NCBI GenBank assembly: GCA_963681505.1
Contig: OY811971.1
Location: 23,079,462-23,143,461, forward strand
DNA length: 64,000 bases
Source: Eunapius fragilis
Taxonomy: Eukaryota > Porifera > Demospongiae > Spongillida > Spongillidae
Direction: 5' to 3'
Every line of letters starts with the position of its first letter. Positions within the stretch are counted from its first letter, which is position 1. The notes beneath the pieces are model-generated. The model saw nothing but the letters and a program-made list of their open reading frames with translations, ran no database searches and was not told the DNA's origin. Below, piece by piece: positions 6,375 to 60,660 of this stretch. The position numbers and the translations under genes are program-made.

Positions 6375-6712
6375 CCTTCTATCCCTTTTTAAAAGGCATT
6401 GATCATGTGACTCTATCGTGCGATCGTGGGTGTAGAATAGTTATAACCTCAGTCCGGACAATGAATATCAAATTTAATTTCATAGCCTTACGACGAAAAG
6501 AGAAACAAAGGTTCTTAAAAGGGCTTTGCTTAGCTTCTCCAAGCGGGTGTTTCTTGTAAAGCGTTGGAGACGATAGCATAGATATTAGAATACTCTAATA
6601 TCTATGACAATAGTGACGCCATTTCGCGTACACCCGCAGCTGTTAGTTCCGTCGTTCCTTTTCAATTAAATACCAACACACCAGTCATAGCTTTATGCCC
6701 CTAAAGCTTCTT
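6375..6712 (-). repeat. 5' flank of the pmp-like gene, duplicated at 33215-33507
   Basis: The sequence just upstream of the ATG contains a TTTTAAAAAG box about 20-25 bases before the start and is repeated with about 85-90% identity by eye at 33215-33507. Shared landmarks are GATCATGTG, TTTCATAGCC, AGAGAAACAAAGG and GCAGCTGTTAGTTCC. This copy carries a 28-bp palindrome (ATAGATATTAGA, loop, TCTAATATCTAT) near 6579-6606 that the other copy lacks. The flank probably carries the promoter, by position only. Confidence 0.6.
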
Positions 6713-14060: not shown

Positions 14061-14198
14061 AGTGCCAACAGTCTGCATTGATCAAGATTTCTGCATTGCT
14101 GAGTTTAGTACACCCCCATGCCCCCCTCCCCCCCCCTCCTCCACCCCCCCTCCCCTCAATGCTGGCTGCAGATTACATCCCACAGGAGAATAACCATA

Positions 14199-17100
14199 GG
14201 GCAGTGGGGAGGTGAGGTACATTGGGCAGTGGGGAGGTGAGGTACATTGGGCAGTGGGGAGGTGAGGTACATAGGCAGTGGGGAGGTGAGGTACATTGGG
14301 CAGTGGGGAGGTGAGGTACATTGGGCAGTGGGGAGGTGAGGTACATTGGGCAGTGGGGAGGTGAGGTACATCAGGCAGTGGGGAGGTGAGATACATTGGG
14401 CAGTGAGGAGGTGAGGTACATTGGGCAGTGGGGAGGTGAGGTACATTGGGCAGTGGGGAGGTGAGGTACAGCAGGCAGTGGGGAGGTGAGGTACATTGGG
14501 CAGTGGGGAGGTGAGGTACAGCAGGCAGTGGGGAGGTGAGGTACATTGGGCAGTGGGGAGGTGAGGTACAGCAGGCAGTGGGGAGGTGAGGTACATTGGG
14601 CAGTGGGGAGGTGAGGTACAATGGGCAGTGGGGAGGTGAGGTACATCAGGCAGTGGGGAGGTGAGGTACATTGGGCAGTGGGGAGGTGAGGTACAGCAGG
14701 CAGTGGGGAGGTGAGGTACATTGGGCAGTGGGGAGGTGAGGTACAATGGGCAGTGGGGAGGTGAGGTACATTGGGCAGTGGGGAGGTGAGGTACATCGGG
14801 CAGTGGAGAGGTGAGGTACATCAGGCAGTGGGGAGGTGAGGTACATCAGGCAGTGGGGAGGTGAGGTACATCGGGCAGTGGGGAGGTGAGGTACATTGGG
14901 CAATGGGGAGGTAAGGTACATCATGCAGTGGGGAGGTGAGGTACATTGGGCAGTGGGGAGGTGAGGTACATTGGGCAGTGGGGAGGTGAGGTACATTGGC
15001 AGTGGGGAGGTGAGGTACATTGGGCAGTGAAGAGGTGAGGTACATTGGGCAGTGGGGAGGTGAGGTACATTGGGCAGTGAAGAGGTGAGGTACATTGGGC
15101 AGTGGGGAGGTGAGGGACATTGGGCAGTGGGGAGGTGAGGTACATCAGGCAGTGGGGAGGTGAGGTACATTGGGCAGTGGGGAGGTGAGGTACATTGGGC
15201 AGTGGGGAGGTGAGGTACATCAGGCAGTGGGGAGGTGAGGTACATTGGCAGTGGGGAGGTGAGGTACATTGGGCAGTGGGGAGGTGAGGTACATCGGACA
15301 GTGGGGAGGTGAGGTACATCGGGCAGTGGGGAGGTGAGGTACATTGGGCAGTGGGGAGGTGAGGTATATTAGGCAGTGGGGAGGTGAGGTACATTGGGCA
15401 GTGAGGAGGTGAGGTACATTGGGCAGTGGGGAGGTGAGGTACATTGGGCAGTGGGGAGGTGAGGTACATTGGGCAGTGGGGAGGTGAGGTACATCGGGCA
15501 GTGGGGAGGTGAGGTACATCAGGCAGTGGGGAGGTGAGATACATTGGGCAGTGAGGAGGTGAGGTACATTGGGCAGTGGGGAGGTGAGGTTCATTGGGCA
15601 GTGGGGAGGTGAGGTACATTGGGCAGTGGGGAGGTGAGGTACAGCAGGCAGTGGGGAGGTGAGGTACATTGGGCAGTGGGGAGGTGAGGTACATTTGGCA
15701 GTGGGGAGGTGAGGTACGTTGGGCAGTGGGGAGGTGAGGTATATTAGGCAGTGGGGAGGTGAGGTACATCAGGCAGTGAGGTACATTGGGCAGTGGGGAG
15801 GTGAGGTACATCAGGCAGTGGGGAGGTGAGGTACATTGGGCAGTGAGGAGGTGAGGTACATTGGGCAGTGGGGAGTTGAGATACATTGGGCAGTGGGGAG
15901 GTGAGGTACATCAGGCAGTGGGGAGGTGAGGTACATTGGGCAGTGGGGAGGTGAGGTACATTGGGCAGTGAAGAGGTGAGGTACATTGGGCAGTGGGGAG
16001 GTGAGGTACATTGGGCAGTGGGGAGGTGAGGTACATTGGGCAGTGGGGAAGTGAGGTACATTGGGCAGTGGGGAGGTGAGGTACATTGGGCAGTGGGGAG
16101 GTGAGGTACATTGGGCAGTGGGGAGGTGAGGTACATCAGGCAGTGGGGAGGTGAGGTACATTGAGCAGTGGGGAGGTGAGGTACATTGGGCAGTGGGGAG
16201 GTGAGGTACATTGGGCAGTGGGGAGGTGAGGAACATCAGGCAGTGGGGAGGTGAGGTACATTGGGCAGTGGGGAGGTGAGGTACATTGGGCAGTGGGGAG
16301 GTGAGGTACATCAGGCAGTGGGGAGGTGAGGTACATTGAGCAGTGGGGAGGTGAGGTACATTGGGCAGTGGGGAGGTGAGGTACATCAGGCAGTGGGGAG
16401 GTGAGGTACATTGAGCAGTGGGGAGGTGAGGTTCATTGGGCAGTGGGGAGGTGAGGTACATTGAGCAGTGGGGAGGTGAGGTACATTGGGCAGTGGGGAG
16501 GTGAGGTACATTGGGCAGTGAGGAGGTGAGGTACATTGGGCAGTGGGGAGTTGAGATACATTGGGCAGTGGGGAGGTGAGGTACATTGGGCAGTGGGGAG
16601 GTGAGGTACATTGGGCAGTGGGGAGGTGAGGTACATTGGGCAGTGAAGAGGTGAGGTACATTGGGTAGTGGGGAGGGGAGGTACATTGGGCAGTGGGGAG
16701 GTGAGGTACATTGGGCAGTGGGGAGGTGAGGTACATTGGGCAGTGAAGAGGTGAGGTACATTGGGCAGTGGGGAGGTGAGGTACATTGGGCAGTGGGGAG
16801 GTGAGGTATATTAGGCAGTGGAGAGGTGAGGTACATTGGGCAGTGGGGAGGTGAGGTACATTGGGCAGTGGGGAGGTGAGGTACATTGGGCAGTGGGGAG
16901 GTGAGGTACATCAGGCAGTGGGGAGGTGAGGTACATTGGGCAGTGAGGAGGTGAGGTACATTGGGCAGTGGGGAGGTGAGATACATTGGGCAGTGGGGAG
17001 GTGAGGTACATTTGGCAGTGGGGAGGTGAGGTACATCAGGCAGTGGGGAGGTGAGGTACATTGGGCAGTGGGGAGGTGAGGTACATTGGGCAGTGGGGAG

Positions 17101-19816
17101 GTGAGGTACATTGGGCAGTGAAGAGGTGAGGTACATTGGGCAGTGGGGAGGTGAGGTACATTGGGCAGTGGGGAGGTGAGGTACATTTGGCAGTGGGGAG
17201 GTGAGATACATCAGGCAGTGGGGAGGTGAGGTACATTGGGCAGTGGGGAGGTGAGGTACATTGGGCAGTGGGGAGGTGAGGTACATTGGGCAGTGGGGAG
17301 GTGAGGTACATCAGGCAGTGGGGAGGTGAGGTACATTGGGCAGTGGGGAGGTGAGGTACATTGGGCAGTGGGGAGGTGAGGTACATTGGGCAGTGGGGAG
17401 GTGAGGTACATCAGGCAGTGGGGAGGTGAGGTACATTGGGCAGTGGGGAGGTGAGGTACATTGGGCAGTGGGGAGGTGAGGTACATTGGGCAGTGAAGAG
17501 GTGAGGTACATTGGGCAGTGGGGAGGTGAGGTACATTGGGCAGTGGGGAGGTGAGGTACATCAGGCAGTGGGGAGGTGAGGTACATTGGGCAGTGGGGAG
17601 GTGAGGTACATTGGGCAGTGGGGAGGTGAGATACATTGGGCAGTGGGGAGGTGAGGTATATTAGGCAGTGGGGAGGTGAGGTACATTGGGCAGTGGGGAG
17701 GTGAGGTACATTGGGCAGTGGGGAGGTGAGGTACATTGGGCAGTGGGGAGGTGAGGTACATCAGGCAGTGGGGAGGTGAGGTACATTGGGCAGTGGGGAG
17801 GTGAGGTACATTGGGCAGTGGGGAGGTGAGGTACATTGGGCAGTGGGGAGGTGAGGTACATCAGGCAGTGGGGAGGTGAGGTACATTGGGCAGTGAAGAG
17901 GTGAGGTACATTGGGCAGTGGGGAGGTGAGGTACATTGGGCAGTGGGGAGGTGAGGTACATTGGGCAGTGGGGAGGTGAGGTACATCAGGCAGTGGGGAG
18001 GTGAGGTACATTGGGCAGTGAGGAGGTGAGGTACATTGGGCAATGGGGAGGTGAGATACATTGGGCAGTGGGGAGGTGAGGTACATTTGGCAGTGGGGAG
18101 GTGAGGTACATCAGGCAGTGGGGAGGTGAGGTACATTGGGCAGTGGGGAGGTGAGGTACATTGGGCAGTGGGGAGGTGAGGTACATTGGGCAGTGAAGAG
18201 GTGAGGTACATTGGGCAGTGGGGAGGTGAGGTACATTGGGCAGTGGGGAGGTGAGGTACATTTGGCAGTGGGGAGGTGAGATACATCAGGCAGTGGGGAG
18301 GTGAGGTACATTGGGCAGTGGGGAGGTGAGGTACATTGGGCAGTGGGGAGGTGAGGTACATTGGGCAGTGGGGAGGTGAGGTACATCAGGCAGTGGGGAG
18401 GTGAGGTACATTGGGCAGTGGGGAGGTGAGGTACATTGGGCAGTGGGGAGGTGAGGTACATTGGGCAGTGGGGAGGTGAGGTACATCAGGCAGTGGGGAG
18501 GTGAGGTACATTGGGCAGTGGGGAGGTGAGGTACATTGGGCAGTGGGGAGGTGAGGTACATTGGGCAGTGGGGAGGTGAGGTACATTGGGCAGTGGGGAG
18601 GTGAGATACATTGGGCAGTGGGGAGGTGAGGTATATTAGGCAGTGGGGAGGTGAGGTACATTGGGCAGTGGGGAGGTGAGGTACATTGGGCAGTGGGGAG
18701 GTGAGGTACATTGGGCAGTGGGGAGGTGAGGTACATCAGGCAGTGGGGAGGTGAGGTACATTGGGCAGTGGGGAGGTGAGGTACATTGGGCAGTGGGGAG
18801 GTGAGGTACATTGGGCAGTGGGGAGGTGAGGTACATCAGGCAGTGGGGAGGTGAGGTACATTGGGCAGTGAAGAGGTGAGGTACATTGGGCAGTGGGGAG
18901 GTGAGGTACATTGGGCAGTGAAGAGGTGAGGTACATTGGGCAGTGGGGAGGTGAGGTACATTGGGCAGTGGGGAGGTGAGGTATATTAGGCAGTGGGGAG
19001 GTGAGGTACATTGGGCAGTGGGGAGGTGAGGTACTTTGGGCAGTGGGGAGGTGAGGTACATTGGGCAGTGGGGAGGTGAGGTACATTGGGCAGTGGGGAG
19101 GTGAGGTACATTGGGCAGTGGGGAGGTGAGGTACATTGGGCATTGGGGAGGTGAGGTACATTGGGCAGTGGGGAGGTGAGGTACATTGGGCAGTGGGGTA
19201 GGGGTGGTACATCAGGCAGTGGGGAGGTGAGGTACATTGGGCAGTGGGGAGGTGAGGCACATCAGGCAGTGGGGAGGTGAGGTACATTGGGCAGTGGGAA
19301 GGTGAGGTACATTAGGCAGTGGGGAGGTGAGGTACATTGGGCAGTGGGGAGGTGAGGTACATTGGGCAGTAGGGAGGTGAGGTACATTGGGCAGTGGGGA
19401 GGTGAGGTACATTGAGCAGTGGGGAGGTGAGGTACATTGGGCAGTGGGGGGGTGAGGTACATCAGGCAGTGGGGAGGTGAGGTACATTGGGCAGTGGGGA
19501 GGTGAGGTACATCAGACAGTGGGGAAGTGAGGTACATTGGGCAGTGGGGAGGTGAGGTACATTGGGCAGTGGGGAGGTGAGGTACATTGGGCAGTGGGGA
19601 GGTGAGGTACATTGGGCATTGGGGAGGTGAGGTACATTGGGCAGTGGGGAGGTGAGGTACATTGGGCAGTGGAGTAGGGGTGGTACATCAGGCAGTGGGG
19701 AGGTGAGGTACATTGGGCAGTGGGGAGGTGAGGCACATTGGGCAGTGGGGAGGTGAGGTACATTGGGCAGTGGGGAGGTGAGGTACATTGGGCATTGGGA
19801 AGGGTTGGTACATCGG
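14199..19816. repeat. 25-bp minisatellite, about 224 copies, with higher-order repeats
   Basis: The unit contains GGCAGTGGGGAGGTGAGGTA followed by CATTG; period 25 bp over 5.6 kb. Variant units (TCAGG, TTTGG, GAAGAGG, GAGATAC, TATATTAGG) recur in fixed order: 16911-17386 matches 17986-18461 at an offset of 1,075 bp (43 units), and the GAGATAC/TATATTAGG group at 17628 recurs at 18603 at an offset of 975 bp (39 units). The plus strand has four G-runs per unit. The unit lacks stops in all minus frames, producing long MYLTSPLPNVPHLPTA frames that I do not regard as genes. Confidence 0.95.
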
Positions 19817-20330
19817 ACACAAATGAGGACGGTGCAACGGACGTGCAGAGGGTCTGGTACGCCATGGAGGCGGGGCTACACTCTAAATGACTCAGGACGC
19901 CTTAAGGATTATTCTGTTTACAGCGATAATTGCTTACGTCATAGACGGTCTGGGTACAAGACTACTCTAGCATGTGGTCACACTGTGATACCTATTGTCT
20001 GTCACATATGACCTTTAATACTGGATCTGTGATAATTGATTTTGGTCTATTTTGGTCGAACTCCTGTTTTGGAAAATTAGTCGGAAAGGTTCTAATTGTA
20101 AATAATACAGGTGCAACATGGAGTTCAATTCTCTAGACGCTGTTTAAACTCTTCCCAGTCTTGCAAAATTTCATCCTAGGATAATATTTTGCTGTCAAAA
20201 ATTATCCCATATTGCAAGTCGGCATTATTATATGACAAATATGAGCAGAAAATTTTTATTATTGATGTGATTTTTGATATACAGTAAGTAATACAAGTCG
20301 CGACGACTTGTATATTTGTATGCAAAGACG
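19817..20330. other. Spacer with half of a palindromic MITE
   Basis: At 19918-19967 lies GTTTACAGCGATAATTGCTT to GGTCTGGGTACAAGACTA, the right half of the element at 8423-8555. The rest is AT-rich and shows nothing recognisable. Confidence 0.6.
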
Positions 20331-29977: not shown

Positions 29978-31772
29978 GGTCCATTCTTAAGGAATATCGC
30001 AGGCTGCGCGACTGTTCAATTGTACAGTTAGTTCAGTACGATCAGCAGGCTACCTTTTACTTCCACATCAGCGTGTCAAAAGCGGCCATTACATAATTGG
30101 CATCCTGCAATAACGTAATTAATAGCACTTGAACAATCATCTTACTTACTCCCATGATGGACGATTCTACATGCACTGTCTGGATGTATTCGTCCTCCTG
30201 CCGTCTCTAATAGGAACGGTAGTGGTTCTAGAGAAAGGAAACCAGCAATGAAAATTTTACTAAACATCAACTACAATTACTGCCCGCTTGTTTTAGCACT
30301 ACCGATACACCGGCCATGCACAGATCATATCTGGTTACCGGTAGACTACTATACACAAACCAAACAATAGCAATCTGTTGTGGTAGGGACAATACAGTAG
30401 CACATACAAGGGCTATTCCCTAGTTTAGAGAATAGCACTTTCCTGTTGCGGATAGTCACAGTAGGAATGGGTATACGAGCCTTTGTTTTGTTGGTCTTCT
30501 CACTAGTGATGAAAAAAAGAGCGTCAAATCGTGTCAATTAATGTATTTTTAGAAATGAATGTCATTATTTCATCCGGTCCCCAAGGAGGTTACATTGTTC
30601 GCGGGTTTTTTTAATTGATGTCATTAATTTTATTCCTTGTTCAAATCAATTGCAGGTGCAAACGACTGAAATACGCGTGCTAATTTATCCTTACATCCCT
30701 GATCTCAACCGAGATGGGTTGAAACAGTTGAGGAATTATATCAAAAAAGAATTCGAAGCACAATTCCCAAACGTAAAAGTTCAAGTCGATGGCGACCCTA
30801 ACACGACTGATCCATACTTACTCGATAATCTGAAGGCATATCTTGGTACGGCCAGCGATGCGTATGATTTGGTGGAGGTGAACACAATTATGTTAGGAGA
30901 AATGGTGAAAACAACCTAGTGCAGCCTAATCCAATTCCTGAACTCCCAGTTAACGTTGGTTCATTTCTACCTTTTGCGGTAGATGCAGTTACCTATGATG
31001 GACAGGTCTGTGGTATACCGACGTTGGTTTGTTCAAACTTCCTGGCACAAATGACCTCATCCAGTGGAAAAGGGGCAGATATTCTGACTGGTAATTTTCG
31101 AGGAAGTTGGACTCTTCCAGAGTATTTTCTGAGTGCGTACATTAGTAAGTACGGATCCTGCTCAATGGACGATGCATGGAGTCCTCTCTAACCCTCCCGA
31201 GCAAAAAGATATTCTAAATACCTTGAAATAGTTCACGGACAAATGCAAACGAAGCAGTGGAATGAATGAACCCTTGTACTGACAATACATACGACGATAC
31301 CAATGCTATGATTAAAGATGTGATTGCCTCAAAGCAATCTCAATTTTTATCATATTCAGAAGTATAATGGGACAGGTTCTGTACACAGACCCCGGAGTAG
31401 CTATCACGAAAATTACAGCCCCACCTCTAGGTGGTGCTGGATACCTGCCAATGTACACGGACGCCCTGGTGGCTAATAGAAACTCGTATAACACCAAGAC
31501 AAATGGTATAAAAGATTTTATCCAATTTTACACATCCTTACGGTTTCGACATAAGTACGCTTTTTGCGGTGACATGAACTCCAATTGTATTCGTTACGTC
31601 CTTCCCGCCAACTCACAATTCTATTATCTTCCAACTGTACTAGTTAACCGCATCTACACCATGCTACACAAAGTAATTACTACATCTGCCACACCTGGAC
31701 CTAACCATGAATTCTAGCTACTACAAGAAAGATTATCTGGACGCAAGTGTTTCAAAGGAGTTAAAGTTTTAG

Positions 31773-35176: not shown

Positions 35177-38100
35177 ATGAGTAACGAGCTAAAAGCGTTC
35201 GTCAGCCTTTACGATGTCTTGCAGAGCACCCTAACTCCTGAAGACGTAGCAGGCGGGTGCTTTGCAAGGAGCATCATATCGAGCGTCGACCTCGAAGAAG
35301 TACAAGCTCCTGGTTCGAGGCATAACAAGATGGCTGTCCTCTTGGGTGCGGTCCAAAGAGCCATTCAATTGGACCAAGCAGCTTTTTACACTTTCCTCGA
35401 ACTGCTTTCTAAAGAAGCAAAATACACTGGTCTTGTTGCTCAGCTACGTAAGTACATGATTATTAACTGACGCGTGTTAAACCATTTAATCCCCAACGTA
35501 GGAGGCAAAGTTCCTGGGAAGGCAACAACAGAAGCAGTCAGTGCACCAGGAGGTAAATAAACCAGTCTCGCAGTAGTGCACTTCTCACGGGAGGGAAGTA
35601 TTATATAAATATATAAATAGAAATAAAAAAATAAAAAATACCTCTTTTCTTCATAATCACTAACATATATCCCGTTTTTGTTGACTTAAAAAGCTAATAT
35701 ATCGCTGCTATTTTGGCGCCCTCACAGCATTTTGGCGCCCTGTTTTTGGACCACTGGGGAGGGGGGCGGGGGGGGGGCGGCAACCGGCCACACCGTCTCG
35801 CAGAATCCATATTCCTCACTGCATGAGTACTGATTTCTTGATGGGGAGGGCCGTGGTCTCTAGCGTCCCGTACACAAAAACCATTTGAAAGCTACGAAGC
35901 AATCGCTTCAAAGTCGCTTGTGCAACAGTGATGGAATCAGTCAGAGTGGGTTTAATGCCAAATCACTCATTAAGTGCCATTGCCACTTTCGGTTATAGAA
36001 CGAACCGGCACCGCAGTATCGACAGCATTCGCTAGCCAGTCCAGGCTGGGTGAAAATACAATACAATACATCCAAAACGAGTATGCATCGTGTCCATGCC
36101 TTTAATTGGCCACTGTCTCTGAGCCCTTCTATAATATTATTCATATGTGTGAATAACGTTTCCCTCCCCTGCCACGCCCCTCACACGTCCACCCCTGCCC
36201 GCCCGCCAGTCTGCTGTCCTTTCTACACGAAAGGACAGCGGATAGCGTTCTTCCAGCAAACTGGCTAAGTTGGTGAAAGGAAACCGTGACGCTATAGTTG
36301 AGTACCCTGTTCTTCAGTGTTCGGAATTTTAACAATTCTATTGGTGCAGTTTTATTAGCAAAGATAGCTTTCAATAAAACATTGGTATCGAAACATGACA
36401 CGTAATTCTTGATATCTATTTGTATCCCTCGTTCAGAAAAAAAAATCTAACTATTTCGTTAAATGGCTGTTTCAAATACAACTACCTGTCTTCTACCAAT
36501 AGTATCCCAAGCTGAACGTAATAAGAGATATTTTTTCAAACGAACAAGATTGGTACTGCCTGAAAGAGCAATTAAATGAATTAAAATGATATGTGAAAGG
36601 TGTCATTTGCGACAAAGTTATAGCGATCCAAACATGGCATGGATTTTGCGGCAATGGTAATCCATGCGGTAGCGCATACAAAATCGTGACGGTTTTTGTT
36701 CTGTTCGCTATAGCAACCACAATCAATAATATAAAATCACACCAAATTTTTTTACAAGTCTTGCACACACATAAGAAGCATAGAATAGTCAATTTCATTA
36801 ATGTACAAAAATATAGTCAACTAAGAATTCATAAGAGTCATTGAAACATAATCTCCATCTTCTTGACTGCTTCCTCGTTTTCAATAAGAAGCAGTTACCT
36901 TGTACGCTTTACAATTTTTAGATAACTTTACTGCTACATTTTTACCTTGGTATAATATATTATCTTCGTTAATAAAACCATAAATGTTCAATGTTGAGTC
37001 CTCTGGATTGGCAAGAATTGCTTTTGTAATATTTATTTGGGATTCATCCATCTCTGGAAACTCTATACAAAATTCTGCATTGCTTTCTGCAACACTCTAT
37101 ATTTTCTTCTGTTCTTCGATAACTACTATCTTTTTTCCGGGTTCTTTCCAATAGCAGTTTATCTCCTTAGCAACATTTAGTTCATGGGTGTGAATAAGCT
37201 ACTTCATCTTTTGAGCCTGTCCTATGCAAAATTTAATAATTTTTTCCTGCTCATTGTGAGGTTTTGAACAAAGCCATGGTAACGATTTATTTATTTTAGA
37301 CTTAACCTTTCATCAACAAACCTAATTTTCACATTATGTGCATTTCTAAAATGATAATCAGCTAATCCAAGAGTTTTCTCAGCAAACATATTATGTGTAG
37401 GGGCAGTGAGCGTTTCGATTGCCAAAGGTGTTGGAAAGTTGGATATATTACCCTCAATGTAATTATATATGTGTCGTTCAATTACTTCTATAATGCCAGT
37501 TATAAGTCGGAACAAAATTTCATTCAAGCTTGCTTTCTCCAGTGCATTCATTAAATTAAAATTACTTTGTAAACACTGCAGTATAACATCTGCATGTCTT
37601 TTTGTCCAAACCTATATCTGTACATGTTGTTAAGACAAGTAACGGGCAATCCTTTAATAAATTTAGGTACTGTAAACATGTCTTAATGTACGAAATAGTA
37701 TCAAGGTTAGTGATGCCTGGATTTCCATACAGCTAAATTTTTTATTCGCTTCGTATTGATGTCTTTAAAGCATTAATATTCCCACATACTCCTTCATGAA
37801 TAAAAGCCACCATTTTGGCAGTATTAAAAATGCTTTGCTGCACTAAGTTTGTATATATGTGCACTACCAAACCATTTCTTATTACTCAAACCTGTAGTGC
37901 ATTGTCTGCACTGATATCACCACTAAAACCTTCAATCAACTTCTTAAAATCTTCTGCAGTCTTCATCCTAATTTGGAAAGATCACACCAATAAATCATTG
38001 CAGCATGGTAACATCTTAAAAGGGTTACATGTAGGGTTGTAAGCACACTGGAAAGTTGCACAAACATGCGTTCGCGGCAACGTACAATATGATATCTGGG

Positions 38101-41100
38101 ACGAGTCACAACCTGAGAAAATCTGGGGTATGCCTTGGGCATCGGCAAAAATTATGGTATTTTCATAGTATGTAGATTTATAGCAAAACTGCGTTTACAA
38201 GTACTTCCTTTTACAGTACCTCGAAAATAATGGTAGTCTTCATTTAGAGTACATATTTTTTCTACGCGCCAGAAAATTTGGACAAAACGTTTCAAATAAA
38301 CCAGAGCTGTATCATAGCATAGACAATGTATCGACATACCGATAAATCCAGAAACAGTCCACAACAGCGATCAAACGAACACAAAAATTGTATTATCTCT
38401 TTCCAATTAAAAACGCCTTCAGTTGAAAACGCATCGTCTCTATTACCATCCATTGTTAAACGATGCTTTTCTCACCTACCATGCAGTAGTAGCAAAATAC
38501 TTTATCCAAGCTCTCTTCGTAATGTTAGAGAGAGATTGAAAGCCATTGCGCCTTTTGGCCTATACGCGGACCAGCCGGTGATAGCGCTAATCACACCTTT
38601 CAAGTGGTAAATTATCAGAACGTGGTCCCAATAACGTTTTTAAAGGCACTTCTCATCCTCATTTTGGAAGGTATAGTGTAATGGTTTTAACAATAGCCTT
38701 GCTTTGCACTGTAGACGCGTTGGAATTTTATATCATCGTTTTCTGAGCTCGCGCATGCTTGTTAACCTGTTTTGAAAAACTGACGATCGATTCTCCAAAC
38801 GTTAACTACATGTAAGCTTTCTCTGTAGAAAGTGTTTGCAAGGATGGTTTTTTGTAGTTTTTCTTATCGCAGCAGCTATCGGATCATGAATGAGTTAGGA
38901 AACTTGAGTGGTAGTGTTGGTCTTAAGAGGGACTTTTTTGTTTTCCAACATGAGTTCTTGGTTTTCTAAAATCGTTACCGCAAAAAGAGATAATTTTCAT
39001 GTGTGTCTTCGCGCCTTACACTCGTGTAGCACTCGCGAGCATTTATGTTGAACTCAGCGAATAAGAGACCAGGATTTAGAAAGAAGTAGGTTTGATATTT
39101 TGATTTCGTGGATTAGCCATATAGCAATTAGATGGATAGCTCGCACAAGCCGTAGGCTGATAGAAAGCGCCCCGCCCACTTTGAATGCCAGAAAGCTGTG
39201 TAGGTTATAATTAACTGCGCTTCTAAAGTATCATGGTTACACCGCACAGCAAAATTACTATTTCCACTCTGCCAGCCATCTCTCATGCGATCAGCTGGAA
39301 AAAAAAAACCCTTTCAGATGGAGCACTGGACGCCAAAATGGCTAAATACTTGCGGGTTAGAGTGAGGGAAGTTAGTTAGCTTCGTGGTCGCTCCCCCATT
39401 CCGTGACGCCATTAACGAGCCAGTTGGTTTGCGGTTCCAGCATATATTAAAATGCTTGAACTCGTCTAAGGTACGAGTTCAGGCGTTATAAGCTTCCGGG
39501 AACAACAACCTACTTACGCATTATGACATCACAAGAAAGTAACATGCAATTGTACTGACTTGTACTGCATGCCTCCACCCCTTTTATTTAACACTGCCTC
39601 AGTATTAAATTACTGCGTACATATGCATGAGGGAGCTGAATGTACATGTAGTAAGTCAAAGCGGCAGAGGCAACAGCACGTCGACATACTTTGTCCACCA
39701 CCTCCCTTAGCCCACATCGAATTTTCACGTTCCTACTTCCAATTCAAACTGCGTGCACGTGCATAGCATTTGTGTGTTTCTTATTCCAGACATACGTCAT
39801 AGTGACATCATTTTTACTGAAAAGGACAGGATAGGAGACGGAGGCCAGGGAGCTGTGTATAAAGCATTTTGGAATCCTAAGAATTTTAATGTTGCAATAA
39901 AAGTATTACTTGCAATTTCAAATGCTGGAAAAAGAGAGGTAAGCCATTTCACCGTGAACCTATATTGCAATTGCTGACAAACATTATTCTTAAATCAGAT
40001 TGAAACACTGAGAACAGTGAGGCATAGAAACATTGTACAGTTATATGGTGTATATGAAAATACGGAAGGAAAGGTTTGCTTAGTATTAGGTGGGTAATAA
40101 TGCACTCAGTTTGCAGAAATATAACATTAGTTGATTGGAAAATAAGAAATATTATGCATCACACTCCTTACTGCTGGTCAATTGTGTACAAAAGGCCCAT
40201 ACTGGATGTCTACATGCTCCATACTTAGAGTAATGTCTTCCTTCTCACGATACCATATGGGCTTTCCTCTTTGAATTTAGATCCGAACATGTACTAAATT
40301 TTTATAACCAGATATATTGTTGATGTCTCAAAAGCATTCAGGCCATTGTGCTGGAATTCTATGCTGAGAAAGATACACAAAAGGCCCATACGATATTTTA
40401 CATCCTCAGCAGACATAGTGTTACAAAGCACATGTACTATGCATCTCAAAAAGGGATTTGCGTGACAGGAAATGACATAACCACTACCGAATAGTTGGCA
40501 ACTACCACTCCTAGCTGAGGCATTCAGTAAAGCCGACTAATAATTCAATTCATCTCGTTCAACATTACACGCAAACAAAGACTGCATGGCTGTTATGCAT
40601 GGGCATTGAGTTTATAACTAGAAAGCATACGGGACAACATAGCTTGAAAAACTCATAATTTTGAAAAACTCATAATTTTGCCAAAACAATTAATATACCT
40701 ACAGCCACTGTATTGCAAATGCATTTTTTAAATGGACTGAATATTGCTGAGATTGCAGTTGAGTTCTACACACGTGCTGTAGCATCTTAGCGAGTTCTAT
40801 TTCATTACACGAATGTAAATTTCCCACATTGGTACGAAGCAATCCGTTCAGTTTCAGCTTGGCCTTTGTAACATTTCCCCCCTCCTGTAATCATGCATTC
40901 AAAAGGTAAGTAGCAAAGTAAGTACACATCTTTATTCTCATCCAATGGTATAAATCCTACCGAAATCATTGATAATGACATAGGAATATAATGTGTTATG
41001 TGGAGGGGATAAGATCAAAGCTCTAGAGCATGTATAAACTGCTACTGGTCGTTCTGGTTAATTTTTGGCATTAGCGTGTGTCGCCATTTCAGTTTTTTTT

Positions 41101-44100
41101 TATTATTAACACGCGGTCCATGAAATTTTGATACCAAAATCATCAAAAAGTATGCAACTGCCTCAAGTAAGCCATTTCCTTCCTTCTTCCATATTACTAA
41201 GAAAATCTGGATGTAAGGCTAGCTCTATGCGACCCCCAGGCATGATTTTAGCTTGTACAGGCCTGTGATTTTTAATTCTGTTTCCTGTGACAATTTTTGT
41301 GCATTATACATATGTAATATGCGCAGAATACTCCCTCTTGAACTTGCATGTTTAATAATAGCAATTTTCAGCGAACAGTATTACCATTCGATCGATGTAT
41401 TGATCATAGTATAGCTCCCAAATCTCAGCGATTTGAAACAGCACGAGTCTGTATATACATGTAGAAGCAACACTTAGCCTGTAATATGTCCCTAAAGTTT
41501 TATCCTTGTCAAGGCGTAATAACCAAGTGTACAGCATACGCTAGTTACATCCGGTTGCTAACTGCTTGATGCATCGCGATAGTCAACACCTTTTCCGATT
41601 GAAAGTGTTCACTAGAAAATATGTATGTGCTCTACGATCTGTAAACTGTCAGGTATAAGAAAAAAGCTTTTTTATGACAAGAATAAGTGTCTGACTTAAA
41701 AGCGTAGCAAAAAAAATGACTCGAAGTATATCCGCAATGGTTAAAAAGTAACAGACAATCATCAATCACTTGTCTGTTGTTGCTGAAAAATTAGTCACAC
41801 ACTGGAATGCATCTACCACCTGTGGGGAATTCTACGATCTATAAACTGTCAGGTGTAAGAAAAAAGCTTTTTTATGACAAGAATAAGTGTCTGACTTAAA
41901 AGCGTAGCAAAAAAAAGAGTACCGTTTGCGTCATTACCGCGAAAATGCTAGGATGTCCTCGTGTCTGCCCGCATCTGTATGGCGCGCTGATCACTTGTAA
42001 GGAAATTTGAAAACAGATACAGCACCAGCGATCAATGAGCTTTAAGAGCCCATGCATTATAGAAATAAGGCGCGACCACAGTATGGTGCGCACTTTTTGG
42101 TATCAAAATTTCATGGACCCAGTGTTAACCAGAAGTTGGTGACACAGGTGCATGTTCTATTTATACATTAGATAAACGCAAATAATTGCATCAAGTACAA
42201 CCCGAAGTATATCCGCAATGGTTAAAAGTAACAGACAATCATCAATCACTTCTCTGTTGTTGCTGAAAAATTAGTCACACACTGGAATGCATCTACCACC
42301 TGTGATGAATTCTAAGATATCAAAGAAGATATGTTCACCCATGAAAATTTAATTCAATATCTTCCACTTCACCCATATCTTAAGTATGTATGGCATGCAG
42401 AAAAAGGATTTAGATATAGTATTTCAAACGAGAGTAATAAATGAGAAGCTATATATTTATAAATTATCAGAAACGTCCAAAATTTCAAAAGACTGTTGTC
42501 ATCAAGACATGCTGTTGTAAAATTTATATTAGGTTTCAAAAGACTGTTGTCATCAAGACATGCTGTTGTAGGTGAAAAAAATCAACACAAAACGTAGTTA
42601 CTTGAAGAAGGTAGTTCAACTGCCACATGTTATTTGTCAGAACATAGACATTATAATTTTTAAATTGAATGGAACCAAATAATTAAGTTTTTTTTTTACA
42701 TGTCTTCATATCGATCTTCTCATGCTACAAACTTAGAACTTGCCCAGACATCCTTGGATAAGCATTTGAAGCAGTGCGCTCCCAACCCTGTGACAAGTTT
42801 GGACTGGTCAATGCAGATAGGAGAAGGTATATTTGTAATATTCTTACCAGAGGAAATGAGGATTTATGGAATTCTCTTTTATAGGTATGAAATACCTTCA
42901 TTATGGTGCACCAGCTGCTATAGTACATGGAGATTTGAAGTCCTTAAATGGTATGTAATGGACAAAAAATAATAGCCATCACCAATTGTCATCACATGCG
43001 AACGTGTAGTTCTTGTTCATCCTGGTAATGTGCTTAAGGTTAGTGGAATTGTACATCTGCAATAATATTATAATGTATGGCATTCTTAAGATTACAGATT
43101 TTGGATGTGCAAAGTTTCAAATTGGTAACATGTCTACAGTGACTAGACACACTTTGCAATGGTGTGCACCTGAGGTTAATTTTTCATGTTTCTAAATTAA
43201 TATTTTTAATCCTCGTATTTTGCTCCTCGTATTTTGCCATTTACAGCTATTTAAAAATGGGAAGCATTCCATGGAGTCAGATGTTTATGCTTATGGTGTG
43301 TTATTGTGGGAAATAGCAACGCACGATGAACCATACAAAGGCCTGAGTGATATGCAAATTATGGGCAAAATCTTTCAGAATGAGGTATACGTATGCACAA
43401 CTGAATTTAAACTGTTCTGACATTGCATCTGCTATGGATCTGAACAGCACCTAGAAATTCCATCGAAGTGTCATGAAGTGATCAAAAGGCTCATGCTACA
43501 ATGCTGGGATGTGGATCCAAAGGTACTTAATCGTAGATTGTAAGAAGACGTGCGTTAATCATAGATTGATCAAGATTTGATAACTCCAGTTATCAAACTT
43601 CAGCACTACTTTTTGAGCCTTCAGAACTAGATTTAATAATTACAATTGCACTAAAAGGTGCCTCCATGATCGTAAGATTGTGTGATAAATAAGTAGTCAT
43701 TAATTGTAATTACCTGATTGATGCATGCACATTCACAACGACCTTATAGTGGTTACCTCTTAGGTAAAATAATTTAATAACACACATCGTAAAATACAAA
43801 ATAAAATAATAATTAAAAACGAGGCCAAATCAAAAATGTTCAGCGGACCTTTGCCTTTGTACAGGCCAAAGCTATAGATTGGTGTTGTGAAAGATGCAAT
43901 TTTGTTAACAATTATCCGCAACGTAGTAATAACCGTACGGTTTTTTTAAAAATACGATTGACAGTATAAACCATTTAAGGAATAAACACTTTAGAATAAT
44001 ATAATACGTTGACTACTCGAGGCCAGGCGCCAATAGGCTGTAAGGTGAGGAGAAAGAATATATGGGTCCCACAATACACTCTTGACGGACATCTGATTGC

Positions 44101-47100
44101 TTGGTGGAGACATGGAAGAATAGAGATACCACGAATGCTGATCACCTGGGAGATTGAAGCTTGTTACTAAGAGAATCCATTAATGTGGCTAACTAATTGT
44201 GATTTACGTACTACATGTAATATGGAACTCAGGGTGCATTAAAATTAAAGCCATATGAAATATTAAAATAAACCAAGTGGAAAAATTTTCACCAAAACAA
44301 TACCCAAAATTCTGACTTAATGCTATAAACATTTACACTAACACAAAAATGGCACATTTTTGCAGCAAAAATTTATATCAATGATGTATAGTCTCATATA
44401 TACCCACATTAACTGTTCACAAGTTCTGGTCTAACCGTGTAACTCTCATTGATTGATTTATTGCCGCTGAGTGGTTGTATAATCTGTGACCTCAAATAAT
44501 GCCAGCCAAGGCTCCGTACTGCGCTTGAAGAAGGAGGTCAAGAATGTTCATATTTAATTAAATAAAGTAGCTGGGGCATTGGGAGAACTAGTAACAGATG
44601 TAAAGTGTATGATCATTGCCAACAATATTAATTTCTGTCAAACTGGGTAGTACATCCTCAATGTTTAAGGTATCCATAGAAGTTATATTTAACTTAAAAT
44701 CCATGTTGCTCATCTAACACTTGCGATTATGCAACTGCTGTAATGTGAGAGTGTAACTAAACCTATATATTTTATGCAGAAACGACCAACATTCAAAATC
44801 ATTATGAATGAATTGGAATTTAAAGGTGAGTTTCAAAAGGAATTTAGCCATAACCAGATTGTGAAATTATAGCAATATTATTATTTTTCTTACTTGAATC
44901 CATCTTCACACATATAGTGGTAAGTAAGAACCACATATTTGTCACTCAAAGCATGTTGAAAACATTTTAACTTCACTCTCTAGCAGCTTTATCACATTGG
45001 TACTTTAATACTTTTCTTATCAAACTACCTGGCAATGTGAATCAAAACCATTTCTACAAGCCTAATACTTTTTCCCACAAATATCTATTTAGTACAACTG
45101 TGCTTGTTATTGGCCAGTTATAATTAAATGTCTGATCTCTTCGCCCCCTCTCTCTCTCCCACTCCCTCTTCCCTTTCTCCCTCCCTGTCTTACTCTCTTG
45201 CTCTCACTTGCATCTCCACGCACACCACCAAGTTGTGTATTATGAGCGTGATTTAGTAACGGCTTTGAATGTAATACTGCTTTGAATCTAATACTGTTAC
45301 GGTACTGTAAACGACTATTGCTTAGCCACACCACATTTTCTTAGCTCCAGTACTTGCTGTTATGCTCATATCATGTGACATTCAAAACAAATGCTACAGA
45401 ATTACATTCTTGAGGGAATTGGTATTGAGCTATTGTACAATAATTTATTCTTTTTCTTTTGTGGAGGCAAAAGTATTTTTCATGTGCCTAAAGTTTATAT
45501 TCAGTATGCAGACTGATAGACATTCATATCCTTTTGATCCTATCAGATACTTGGCCAAGTCCTACTCCAACTCCTTTAGGTAAGAATATTATAATGCCAA
45601 AAATACTGGCCAACACAGTGAAGGTGCATAAATAGTAACAAACAAACTTCTTATAGACTGCTAACGAGCATGTACTACTAATTAAGATAATGTTACTAGT
45701 GGAAAGCATGAACCATGTCCTCACTAAAGCTTACTGTTAAATCAGAAATATGTTCTTTCATCATGTCCGGTGCATTTTATTATTAATTCAAAAGCTATCA
45801 ACCTATACTAAATGAATTTCAACAATCCCAATGTCAGGTGACAGATTCCTGTTTACACTGCAACACCAAATGTGTGCCCCAGTTGTAAGCCAATTGACAG
45901 ATAGCACTTTCACCTTTCATATGACTACATTGTGTGTGCTACAAGAATAGGGGCACCAAGGATGGAAAGGTGTGGCTCAAGAGAGACATTCATCCCTGAT
46001 GGGAACATGTCGATGTCATTTTGGCTGAAAGCTCAAATTTGGATACGTTAATGTACAAGTAGGGGACTAAGCATTTTAATGAAAATAAAGAAGGGGTTAT
46101 CGCTGATTTAATACATTAACGGAGTGGACGGGGTTGAAATGATTTCTTCACAACTATCAATGTGGTCTGGACGGACTGAGAGGGAGGGGGATTAACTCCC
46201 CCTCCACCCCCATCCACTATGGCCTCGATAGATCATAGCCAGGCCTTGTATGAATAGTCTAGACTATCCCAACATGCTATTGGAGCCTAGCACCAAAATT
46301 TAGAAATTTGTAATAGCCACAGCATTGATGATTTTGAACCTTCGGAATCCGTTGTACAGCTGATAAATAGAACAGGTGATGAACTCATCAACTTGCTATT
46401 GTTGAAGATAGATTTGTACTGTACAATGTACCAAACATCTTTCGAAAGTAAGTCTCTCATTCCAATGCAAGATTACAGGCCCAGGGAATCACCTTGCTGA
46501 ACTCTTGATTATCATGATAGATGGCCCACAGGGCCATAGCACCAAGACCCACATTACAAAGGAATTTGAAAGCATTGCACACATCCACATTCCCCACAGA
46601 ATCCAAGTGTTCCCACATGTATGTTCTTAGGCCATAAATTAAATTCTCATTGATCAGTTTCCAAGGGACTGGCAACTCCAAACAGAAGAGGTTGGAAGAA
46701 CCCAGTGGCCCTGCGTTTAGTAGCTCAAGCACACCTTTCCCTGTCAGCCTCTGGACTTCTTCAACCATATGTAATTTCTTCAGCCACTAGACACTATAAT
46801 AACAGGGGGGGAAGGGGTTGGTAGCTATGCATTTTAAAAGTCATATGGTTGGGGATGAGATGATGAGATAGTAGGCTGCTGGTGGTATAGACCTAAGATG
46901 GTAATATCACATTCTGAAGCAGTACCACACGCCGCTGCTACTTTGTTGTATGTTGTAAATTGCTTGCCATATTGTCCACTACTCCATACCTCATTGCTCT
47001 CATTCCTGTGCATTTGAATGAACTCTACTATTGCAGACAATAGTACAAATGGTAGACCAAAACATAAGGATACATATTTGCATGTATTAAATGTCTCTAA

Positions 47101-47598
47101 AAAGACATAGATGTATTAATTATACTCTCCAAGGGGAGGGGATAACTGAGCCTGCATGTTGTAGATGCTTTATTGAATTTGCATCATCCATTAGGTGCTC
47201 AATCATATGGTCAGGCGGCATCCTCAAGTACACCGCGATATGGTAAGGGTTTAGATTACTTGTTAATAGAGAAAGTTTGATATGCAAATGAATTGATATA
47301 TGAGTAATCCTCTATTTGTTTAGTTCCCTTGACATCTAACGATTTAAATGAAGTGAATACAAGATTACAAGCTGTTACAAACTGGCATTACTTGGGTGAG
47401 AATTTATTTGTACCTGACTATATTCTGACAAGTATTGAGAGTAACACGACATTGGAAGATTACAGCCAACGCAGAAATGCTATGTTGAAGTGGTGGCTGG
47501 ACAATGATCATGAAGCATCTTGGAATAAACTGGCACAATCACTAGGGGGCAGTTATGTACGCCTTGGACAGGCAATTCTTTCAGAAAAATGCAAGTAG
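35177..47598 (+). CDS. CARD-like / protein kinase / Death-domain fusion protein
   Basis: I assembled 14 exons with GT-AG borders and matching phases: 35177-35447, 35502-35552, 39790-39938, 39999-40089, 42737-42826, 42885-42950, 43010-43038, 43091-43174, 43247-43384, 43448-43522, 44780-44825, 45547-45579, 47195-47242, 47324-47598. They give 481 residues without a stop. Residues 1-90 look like a CARD (RHNKMAVLLGAVQRAIQLDQ). The kinase spans about 110-365: glycine loop IGDGGQGAVYK (122-132), VAIK Lys145, helix C Glu157, HGDLKSLN (Asp234, Asn239), DFG Asp252, APE 275-277, SDVYAYGVLLWEIATHDEPY, CWDVDPKKRPTF. Residues about 402-470 form a Death domain (NWHYLGENLFVP, MLKWWLDNDHEASWNKLAQS). HGD in place of HRD marks a non-RD kinase, as in IRAK1 and Pelle. 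No signal peptide or membrane segment, so cytoplasmic. Likely role, inferred: Death-fold adaptor-driven kinase in immune or stress signalling. Extra exons in the long introns cannot be excluded. Confidence 0.88.
36880..38010 (-). pseudogene. Decayed transposon-like gene within intron 2 of the kinase gene
   Basis: On the minus strand, reading downward: DFKKLIEGFSGDISADNALQ near 37975-37915, IFNTAKMVAFIHEGVCGNIN near 37830, GNPGITNLDTISYIKTCLQY and LLKDCPLLVLTTCTDIGLDK near 37725-37600, PTPLAIETLTAPTHNMFAEK and HFRNAHNVKIRFVDERLSLK (37551-37291). NKSLPWLCSKPHNEQEKIIK and LNVAKEINCYWKEPGKK follow to about 36900. Several stops and frameshifts separate them. I take it for a member of a multi-copy sponge/cnidarian family, probably transposon-derived; the catalytic type is not recognised. 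Confidence 0.5.
41060..42140. repeat. Intronic element with inverted ends and internal duplications
   Basis: TCCATGAAATTTTGATACCA near 41115 is inverted as TTGGTATCAAAATTTCATGG near 42098, with GTTCTGGTTAA and TTAACCAGAAG outside. Inside, ATAAACTGTCAGGTGTAAGA with AAAAAGCTTTTTTATGACAA occurs at about 41640 and 41842. ATTAGTCACACACTGGAATG with its neighbours recurs at about 41790 and at 42270 just outside. Confidence 0.6.
42480..42575. repeat. Two-copy tandem duplication of about 48 bp
   Basis: TTTCAAAAGACTGTTGTCAT then CAAGACATGCTGTTGTA occurs at 42486 and again at 42534. Confidence 0.85.
46304..46447 (+). CDS. Candidate optional exon of the CARD-kinase-Death gene
   Basis: Between exons 12 and 13 a 144-base stretch lies between TTTAG and GTAAGT. 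It starts and ends in phase 1, exactly as needed to insert 48 codons in frame between the linker exons. It reads SHSIDDFEPSESVVQLINRT then GDELINLLLLKIDLYCTMYQ with no stop. The acceptor has a weak pyrimidine tract. It may be an alternatively used linker exon (529-residue form) or chance. I recognise no domain in it. Confidence 0.4.
46457..47040 (-). other. Antisense open frames in a kinase-gene intron, not recognised
   Basis: Frames of 103 codons (46768-46457, EEVQRLTGKGVLELLNAGPL) and 68 codons (47040-46834, VEFIQMHRNESNEVWSSGQY) lie close together on the minus strand. Their composition looks protein-like, but I know no family match and cannot tell whether they are a nested gene or remnants. 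Confidence 0.3.
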
Positions 47599-58976: not shown

Positions 58977-60064
58977 CCACTTTCACACCATTACAGTGTT
59001 ATACCAAAGCTTTATAACACTCAACAAGCCAATATGAATATGCAGATATTAGTTGGCTGCAGACCACCATCCTATTTGATCTATTGATTGGTCAAATAAT
59101 TTTAACTATTAATCCAATTTGCCAATGTTTGGATTATATTTGTTATCCAAGACATTGAATGACTTCTGTAAGTGCACTGCTTAGATTGGACACTTAATTA
59201 TGAATATGCATTGTGTGATTGATAATACTGCATAGTATCCTAACAGCTCTATAGTGCTATTTGCATTGACCATGCAATTAATTATCATCCCAGTCAACCT
59301 CTAATTATTTTTAGGTGGATTATTTTCAACATGCCATTGGTGTGAAGTGATAAATGTGTCACATCTTTTATTCTGAATTAACACACAGTGCTCCATTCAA
59401 GACAACAAAGAAGAAAATATGCACAAAAAATATGCACAAAACAAAGTTCTTCAAACAACTTGAATAAACTTGTCTTGCCAAACCAGTTATTTCAGTACTG
59501 GCTTGATCAAATCGAGGAAATTCGCAGCTTCATCAGTTTCATATCAACATCTATGAAAACTAATAGTTGGCTTAGTCCCAATGTTTATTTCTCTATGATC
59601 CAGCTGCGAAATTTATCTATGACCATAGATATAGTATAATATCTATGCTATGACCAAGCTGGTACTGTGTATCCAAGGGAACAGGTCCACACTGCCAGGT
59701 TGTAAATTCATATGTCTATGAATTAATACATATACTAAAGCTACCTTACCATAGATAATTAATAGATCAGTATAAATGACACTTCACTCTATAATCTGTT
59801 ATACTACCTTGGTTAGTTTTATCACAGCACAAAGCAGTTCTTACTGCCTTCTGCCTGGTCTTACAAGACACAGGTGCATGGTACATACCCTGTGGTAAAG
59901 AGGGACATAACATGGAGGCTTGTGGTAAAGATGTTGCTGTGTAAACGTTTTTGGATTGGTCACTTTGGGAGTTGGTTTAGAACCATATCAACCATCCATT
60001 TTGCCATAAAAGGGAAAGTCTAAATCACAAACATATCATACCTGTAGATTTTTGTGTGTAATGC
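58977..60064. other. Spacer, nothing recognised
   Basis: AT-rich sequence with short open frames only (59388-59639 plus). No repeat or RNA gene stood out. Confidence 0.4.
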
Positions 60065-60212
60065 ACCCTCCCCACCTCACCTTCCCACCCTCCCTCCTTA
60101 CCTTCCCACCCTCTCACCTCACCTTCCCACCCTCCCACTTCACCTCCCCACCCTCCCACCTCACCTCCCCACCCTCCCACCTCACCTCCCCACCCTCCCA
60201 CCTCAGCTCCCC
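60065..60212. repeat. CT-rich minisatellite, 21-bp type, array 6
   Basis: About seven units, ending directly before the Death-domain exon. Confidence 0.85.
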
Positions 60213-60235
60213 ACAACCACAGCCTACACATCTTA

Positions 60236-60660
60236 AGCTTGTATCACCACATTCATCTCCCCAGTCTACTGGACTTCTTGGTAGGATCAGCCCCACCTTC
60301 CCTGTTATGGCCACTTTTTCACCATCTTCCTCCACCATTTCCACATCTGCAGGTCCACCTTCCCTCCCCCTGTTGTTGGATTTCCCTGCTCGTGGTGCCT
60401 CCATCAACATCATTCAGAAGATAGGTACCAACTACTACAACTTTGGTACACTCCTCCTAAATGATAACACTGGGGAAGTGGTGAAAGCAATTAGACAAGA
60501 ATACTTAGCAAATGCTGAAAACATCACCTACCAAATATGTGCGAAGTGGATTGATGGGAAAAGCACTGTTCCAGTTACATGGAGTTCACTGGTGCAGGTT
60601 CTCAGAAGTTGCCAACTCCGTGTATTAGCAGACCAGATAGAAGCTGTAACAGCTAGTTGA
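60236..60660 (+). CDS. Terminal exon with Death domain (partial gene)
   Basis: The open frame ends at TAG 60660. Its last about 100 residues read ARGASINIIQKIGTNYYNFG, TLLLNDNTGEVVKAI, ENITYQICAKWIDGKSTVPV and TWSSLVQVLRSCQLRVLADQ, then IEA. The pattern (LGxxLLxD..G..V..I, ILxxWLxG.G..PVTW..L...L....L..LA..IE) is a C-terminal Death-fold domain that I know as very common in sponge signalling proteins. Death domains bind other Death-fold proteins in immune and cell-death complexes. The frame is open upstream through the CT array, so the exon start is uncertain; AG sites at about 60230, 60268 and 60291 are candidates. No upstream exon was identified, so the rest of the protein is unknown. Confidence 0.65.

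Follow-up and report, generated by a model that had tools for sequence, protein, structure and literature searches.

A predicted gene with the order CARD, MAP3K-type kinase, Death in the sponge Eunapius fragilis and its probable assembly from phase-1 modules

The window analysed here is a stretch of 64,000 nucleotides from the sponge Eunapius fragilis (contig OY811971.1, hereafter C1; C1:23079462-23143461). It carries a predicted gene for a kinase flanked by death-fold domains, and relatives of this gene were sought in the whole 218.9-Mb genome (24 contigs, C1 and so on below). When the gene model was rebuilt from the sequence, 14 exons (35177-47598) formed a single open frame of 481 residues, ending in the stop codon TAG at 47596-47598; an in-frame TAA lies immediately 5′ of the ATG, at 35156. 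The introns were GT...AG in 13/13 cases, with phases, in order, of 1,1,0,1,1,1,0,0,0,0,1,1,1, and no stop, frameshift or lost splice site was found in the 14 exons. An earlier reading of the letters alone, made without database searches (the sequence-only reading), had claimed that the exons join in phase into one frame, and the rebuilt model bore this out. The gene probably encodes one protein with the order CARD, MAP3K-type kinase, Death, assembled from phase-1 modules by exon shuffling.

Residues 119-360 of the predicted protein matched the Pfam kinase family (3.9e-56). The full set of kinase elements was present: glycine loop, Lys (K145, in VAIK at 142-145), helix-C Glu, catalytic Asp (D234, in HGD at 232-234), Asn (N239), DFG (252-254) and APE. 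Exon 3 ends with the helix-C Glu, E157, which aligns with the helix-C Glu of MLK4. The catalytic residues are intact, and the kinase is predicted to be active. The sequence-only reading had named K145, E157, D234, N239, DFG and the replacement of HRD by HGD in the catalytic loop, all of them correctly. It had also taken HGD as a parallel with IRAK1 and Pelle, and this part was not supported. HGD is common to the four paralogs in the same genome for which the loop was printed (paralog A and the copies on C14, C7 and C5) and says nothing on IRAK ancestry.

In direct comparison by blastp, the window kinase scored 120 bits with ZAK, 117 with MLK4 and 111 with TAK1, versus 74 with IRAK4, 74 with RIPK1, 74 with EGFR and 61 with RIPK2. 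The top row among PDB matches was an EGFR tandem construct, whose 169 bits are the sum of two 84-bit matches; it was followed by ZAK (163), MLK4 (142) and a designed Src-Abl ancestor (139 bits), and further down by MLK1 (137), DLK (135), TAK1 (125) and ABL1 (124 bits). ZAK was the best natural single-domain match, and ABL1 was about equal to TAK1. No IRAK or RIPK chain was among the best 60 PDB rows, the lowest of which scored 113 bits. The kinase phylogeny that the sequence-only reading had proposed, run as an 11-row tree, grouped the window kinase with ZAK, MLK4 and TAK1 at a support of 82/87, below the mark for strong support and with a long-branch warning, and paired RIPK1 and RIPK2 apart from it. 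These comparisons suggest that the window kinase is most like MAP3Ks (ZAK, MLK, TAK1), not IRAK or RIPK. Kinship with RIPK is disfavoured by the RIPK1 and RIPK2 scores set against that of ZAK, by the small tree and by the position of the kinase, which is not N-terminal; kinship with IRAK/Pelle is disfavoured by the IRAK4 score and by the same tree. Because the kinase is closest to MAP3Ks, the IRAK parallel would be convergence.

Exon 1, scanned alone, matched Pfam CARD with E = 0.0068 (16.8 bits; cut-off 23.9), and the whole-protein scan gave CARD at E = 0.11. The exon-1 domain occurs at six close places in the genome, namely the window and five paralogs (75-85% identical), four of which lie near the window at C1:22.99-23.18 Mb. 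Three of the five paralogs exceeded the CARD cut-off (25.3, 25.1 and 24.4 bits). When 15 CARD relatives were aligned, 11/15 matched CARD at E ≤ 0.01, and no other family was matched. The best match of the CARD family profile in PDB was the CARD of MDA5 (0.015); APAF1 came lower (0.28), with unrelated chains between them. By homology through these relatives, the predicted N-terminal domain is a CARD.

Exon 14 alone matched Pfam Death with E = 0.0028 (18.2 bits; cut-off 22.6). Its relatives at C5:4052736 (52% identical) and C8:9452117 (48%) exceeded the Death cut-off, with 25.5 and 42.5 bits, respectively. A profile of the three Death sequences found FADD first in PDB (0.0028), then THOC1 (0.017) and unrelated chains from 0.021. 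The predicted C-terminal domain is, again by homology through relatives, a Death domain. TRADD-N was not among the six Pfam families listed for the whole protein up to E of 10, a scan in which the HMMER filters drop most weak matches. The genome-wide Pfam Death search gave 150 matches among the 150 scored of 380 candidates; the window's own CARD exon and Death exon were not among the matches listed by the genome-wide Pfam searches. AlphaFold models of exons 1 and 14, made without alignment, had predicted local distance difference test scores of 54 and 51 and were not used, because these values were too poor.

Relatives of each module were found in other genes of the same genome. All ten of exons 3-12 (10/10) were matched in paralog A (C1:24.82 Mb), with AG/GT borders and 85-97% DNA identity, and interrupted stretches of DNA homology to this locus began at 39468, within intron 2, and reached 45701, a little beyond exon 12. 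In paralog A, the kinase is followed by a Death frame of another type, Death-alpha, 62-64% identical to the Death-alpha of the CARD-Death paralogs L011 and L007; we infer that this frame belongs to A's kinase gene. Unlike A, the window gene carries a Death domain of type beta. Exon 13 had no counterpart in the three loci compared (A, L037 and L038). The CARD paralogs showed a different make-up: in L011 together with L071, both the CARD frame and the Death-alpha frame are open, in L007 an open CARD frame is accompanied by the beginning of Death-alpha, and L009 has a Pfam Death match just past the stretch read (C1:23023012). In BLAST, homology to the CARD paralogs started at the ATG and stopped at 35536, close to the donor of exon 2. 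The position of this donor was common to the five CARD paralogs in a multiple alignment; the single indel of exon 2 was an in-frame deletion of 24 nt in the window gene relative to them.

Phase 1 is found at the end of the CARD module and at both ends of the kinase module, and it also fits the starts of the Death exons of L011, A and L037, as read from their sequences. Because the modules meet at phase 1 and match separate paralog genes, a mosaic origin of the window gene by exon shuffling is most likely. A CARD 43% identical to that of the window stands ahead of a NACHT domain (1.7e-23) in gene L012 on C15. The sequence-only reading had described an intact fusion with death-fold domains at both ends, which could link two adaptor systems. 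The last suggestion fits the paralogs, and the two end domains are upheld by homology. The profile check that it proposed gave CARD and Death when the exons were scanned separately, although at scores below both cut-offs. The word intact holds for the DNA, although the CARD exons are a copy related to the nearby CARD-Death gene family.

The question is whether the CARD is joined to the kinase. Exon 3 encodes no Met and therefore needs an upstream phase-1 exon. The exon-2 donor matches the phase of the exon-3 acceptor, which has a pyrimidine-rich AG, and no alternative partner was recognised. A candidate short first exon picked out by eye at about 39.52 kb, an ATG with a phase-1 GT after it, was rejected: paralogs A and B lack its donor GT. 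The window gave no Death-alpha match at E ≤ 0.01. When 76 CARD places were compared with 79 listed kinase places, the window was the only locus with a CARD upstream of a kinase on the same strand within 20 kb; among the same places, one CARD, on C7, lay downstream of a kinase. The 76 CARD places comprised 51 places plus the 25 of 42 Pfam-listed places not already counted; for the kinase, the best 89 of 484 candidates were scored, so that its list is incomplete, and the 79 kinase places were obtained from 105 rows after 26 had been dropped as CARD or Death matches or as extra exons of listed loci. About 0.07 CARD-kinase pairings would be expected by chance within 5 kb. From the phases and splice sites, we infer that exon 2 is spliced to exon 3.

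Several observations weigh against a single gene with this domain order. Both end domains score below the Pfam cut-offs by themselves, and the whole-protein Pfam scan does not list Death. Intron 2, between the CARD and kinase modules, is 4.2 kb long. The DNA 5′ of the window's ATG is not common with the CARD paralogs. The DNA read ahead of the kinase in paralogs A and B, 6.5 and 7.5 kb respectively, contained no CARD, the best profile match having E of 0.66 (inside B); to that extent, the CARD does not belong to the kinase gene that they share with the window. Two CARD copies also stand in other contexts. In L008, exon 1 is open although exon 2 contains a stop and the Death exon is broken, which shows that exon 1 can stay open in a defective gene. 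L010 (C1:23180839, minus strand), 82% identical to exon 1, precedes a frame for double-stranded RNA binding; of the AGs that suit phase 1 here, the best-looking, after a T run, opens onto a stop, but weaker ones within the frame would fit. The frame after L010 contains two double-stranded-RNA-binding motifs (dsrm, 1.5e-12) and has a possible ATG of its own; it may be a third partner of the CARD module or belong to a separate gene.

These observations bear on the strongest alternative, that there are two neighbours: exons 1-2 would be a stray partial copy of a CARD-Death gene, and the kinase-Death gene would use another first exon. The window's CARD indeed sits among its paralogs, its homology to them starts at the ATG and stops near the exon-2 donor, no CARD precedes the kinase in paralogs A and B as far upstream as they were read, and L010 and L008 exemplify CARD copies before an unrelated frame and in a broken gene. 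That selection on exons 1-2 is not significant also counts for this alternative. In favour of a single gene, exon 1 has four silent and no amino-acid private changes at codons that are invariant in the five paralogs. The pairwise ratio of nonsynonymous to synonymous substitution rates (dN/dS) between the window exon and the five paralogs was 0.31 to 0.83. In a codon test of exons 1-2, omega was 0.58 on the window branch and 0.93 in the background; the former value was not significantly different from 1 (p = 0.28) or from the background (p = 0.39). Purifying selection was consequently rejected as proof that exon 1 is used. In neutral simulations under nine settings (16, 22 or 28 substitutions with an indel share of 0, 8 or 15%), 0.8-40% of runs left exons 1-2 open and their splice sites intact; the share was 1.6-7% for 22 substitutions with indels. 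The preserved reading frame counts against a stray copy, as do the splice sites of matching phase in exons 2 and 3, the absence of a Death-alpha match from the window and the missing donor GT of the candidate first exon in A and B. On balance, we consider two neighbouring genes unlikely, although a good deal less so than the other alternatives.

A further alternative is a decaying gene, an exon-shuffled product whose expression has been lost. The family does have broken members, L008 and the C7 kinase copy, in which a Death-like stretch is interrupted by a stop and retroelement sequence lies close by; the CARD exons also have a high rate of evolution, as the background omega indicates. The window gene itself, however, has kept all 14 exons free of lesions together with its catalytic residues, and its kinase exons 3-12 are close to paralog A. 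Decay is accordingly improbable. Least credible of all is the acquisition of a second death-fold domain by an IRAK/Pelle-type kinase: the HGD loop and the linkage to a Death domain are as in IRAK/Pelle, but the kinase scores favour MAP3Ks and the Death domain is C-terminal, not N-terminal. One gene with the order CARD, kinase, Death is the reading that we retain.

Some further loci concern the same modules. L034 (C14:4602908, minus strand) has a CARD that passes the cut-off (28.3 bits) and follows a NACHT match on the same strand. It was rejected as a second CARD-NACHT receptor since its NACHT lies 5′ of the CARD, the reverse of the usual order; because NACHT stands upstream, L034 may be two neighbouring genes, or it may be a single NACHT-CARD gene. 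The kinase paralogs L073 (C5:386500-393500) and L069 (C14:6446500-6454500) have one Death-like frame upstream and another downstream, and could be Death-kinase-Death genes. Their upstream frames lie ~1.7 kb (C5) and 3.2 kb (C14) from the kinase; the C14 frame had a weak Pfam Death match (0.0048) and the C5 frame had none. That an N-terminal death-fold domain is general to this kinase family is suggestive only. The C5 paralog has ankyrin-like repeats further upstream. In the window, a frame at 60010-60660 (plus strand), ~12 kb 3′ of exon 14, had a weak Death match (Pfam, 0.022) and by eye resembled the Death-like frames that follow the kinase paralogs on C5 and C14. What appears to be a large expansion of kinases lies at C3:4.7-8.1 Mb, where at least 25 kinase places, with 36-39% identity over about residues 105-307, stand in open frames of 309-845 codons.

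Table 1. Exons of the predicted gene and its second intron, in window coordinates.
Feature	Position	Strand	Content
Exon 1	35177..35447	+	ATG and CARD, residues 1-90; ends in phase 1
Exon 2	35502..35552	+	Linker; ends in phase 1
Intron 2	35553..39789	+	4237 bp; between CARD module and kinase module
Exon 3	39790..39938	+	Kinase N-lobe, glycine loop, K145, E157; encodes no Met
Exon 4	39999..40089	+	Kinase N-lobe
Exon 5	42737..42826	+	Hinge and helix D
Exon 6	42885..42950	+	Catalytic loop HGD (D234), N239
Exon 7	43010..43038	+	29-nt micro-exon ahead of DFG; 27/29 nt aligned in paralogs A and B
Exon 8	43091..43174	+	DFG, activation loop, APE
Exon 9	43247..43384	+	Kinase C-lobe
Exon 10	43448..43522	+	Kinase C-lobe
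Exon 11	44780..44825	+	End of kinase domain; ends in phase 1
Exon 12	45547..45579	+	Proline-rich linker; last exon common with kinase paralog A; ends in phase 1
Exon 13	47195..47242	+	Linker; ends in phase 1
Exon 14	47324..47598	+	Death domain (type beta) and stop TAG

Other frames were noted elsewhere in the window. Two adjoining frames at 30542-31191 (plus strand) weakly matched successive segments of TIGR04541, the model for bacterial thiaminase I, far below the cut-off (0.06 and 0.001) and with no Pfam match; they possibly represent a thiamine pyridinylase-like gene with introns. Long, repetitive frames rich in Cys, Pro and Leu lie at 14082-19901 (minus strand), where several overlapping minus-strand frames are open, a pattern such as a tandem repeat would give. 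Similar frames rich in Pro, Thr, Ser and His were seen at 11.1-12.4 kb and 50.4-55.7 kb. At 2587-6440 (minus strand), there are frames of 1003 and 336 residues, the first with sub-threshold matches only (DUF7630, 0.0016) and the second with no match.

The domain order suggests how the protein might work. A receptor with a related CARD, for example the product of the CARD-NACHT gene on C15, would oligomerise and recruit the window protein through CARD-CARD contact. The crowded kinase domains would activate one another, and the activated kinase could phosphorylate MAP2Ks, as ZAK, MLK and TAK1 do. The Death domain would provide a second docking face for another set of partners. The product is likely to be a one-piece CARD-kinase-Death relay with a RIPK2/RIPK1-like working on a MAP3K-type kinase, its partners and outputs being putative. 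The separate CARD-Death and kinase-Death genes could meet through their shared Death-alpha, whereas the window gene would place the CARD directly on the kinase in one chain, with a different Death domain (beta). A published model for the CARD-CARD recruitment is provided by NOD1/2, which are placed upstream of RIPK2 in the relevant passages of two papers (PMC9573974, PMC6321704).

Tentatively, and as a possibility short of an even chance, we propose that an early animal lineage built its own relay from NOD-like receptors to a kinase: a CARD related to that of a NACHT receptor would have been shuffled onto a Death-bearing MAP3K, bypassing the extant pair of adaptor and kinase-Death protein, and CARD-kinase signalling would have arisen independently of vertebrate RIPK2, on a different kinase. 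If the gene is expressed as predicted, the adaptor and the kinase of an innate-immune pathway are fused in a genome that still contains unfused relatives, and the wiring logic of death-fold domains is therefore directly testable by setting the fused relay against the two-part one. The gene would also be an example, outside the RIPK and IRAK families, of a MAP3K wired by a CARD. Should the CARD prove to be a mere neighbour, the locus remains a record of fast-shuffling CARD, kinase and Death modules meeting at phase 1.

No description of a CARD-kinase-Death protein was found in the literature searched, subscription papers being mostly outside its reach, and a pattern search of GTDB genomes matched six stretches, none of which was confirmed. 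One paper, which does not mention sponges, confines RHIM and CARD to vertebrate RIPK1-3, with CARD in RIPK2, and reports unusual orders such as DEATH-kinase in amphioxus (PMC9573974), an animal for which shuffled immune genes are described in part of another source (PMC2575513). In PMC6321704, no RIPK1/2 orthologue was found in Trichoplax, a situation likened to that of cnidarians, one kinase with a death-like domain was found there, and sponges are stated to possess reasonable IRAK orthologues that carry a Death domain. Excerpted data give 39 CARD genes, 128 DEATH genes and 20 CARD-NACHT-LRR genes in Dysidea avara (PMC12909245) and kinase genes with DEATH domains among the lipopolysaccharide responders of Halichondria (PMC8242945). 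The Amphimedon proteins treated in portions of PMC8195603 have one to three death-like domains, TRADD-N and C-terminal parts that can include kinases, so that fusions of death-fold domains and kinases in sponges are of an already known kind. They resemble the window gene in their N-terminal death-like domains and possible C-terminal kinase; they differ in carrying TRADD-N, and those portions describe no Death domain C-terminal to the kinase (PMC8195603).

Among the well-known systems, RIPK2 (kinase-CARD) shares with the window gene a kinase with a CARD, and the CARD-NACHT gene on C15 recalls NOD1/2 upstream of RIPK2; the window gene differs in its N-terminal CARD, extra Death domain and MAP3K-like kinase. 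RIPK1 (kinase-RHIM-Death) likewise has a Death domain C-terminal to the kinase, but it is the window gene that has an N-terminal CARD, and its kinase is not RIPK-like. In IRAK1 and Pelle (Death-kinase), whose catalytic loops are HGD, a death-fold domain is joined to the kinase as here; the Death domain of the window protein is on the other side, and the kinase scores differ (IRAK4 being the member compared). ZAK (MAP3K20), MLK4 and TAK1 have the closest kinase domains in direct comparison, although the window kinase has HGD instead of HRD; to our knowledge, their accessory parts are a leucine zipper, SAM or SH3, not CARD or Death. Finally, the CARD-Death adaptor CRADD/RAIDD combines CARD and Death in one protein, which is the make-up of the nearby paralogs, whereas the window gene has a kinase between them.

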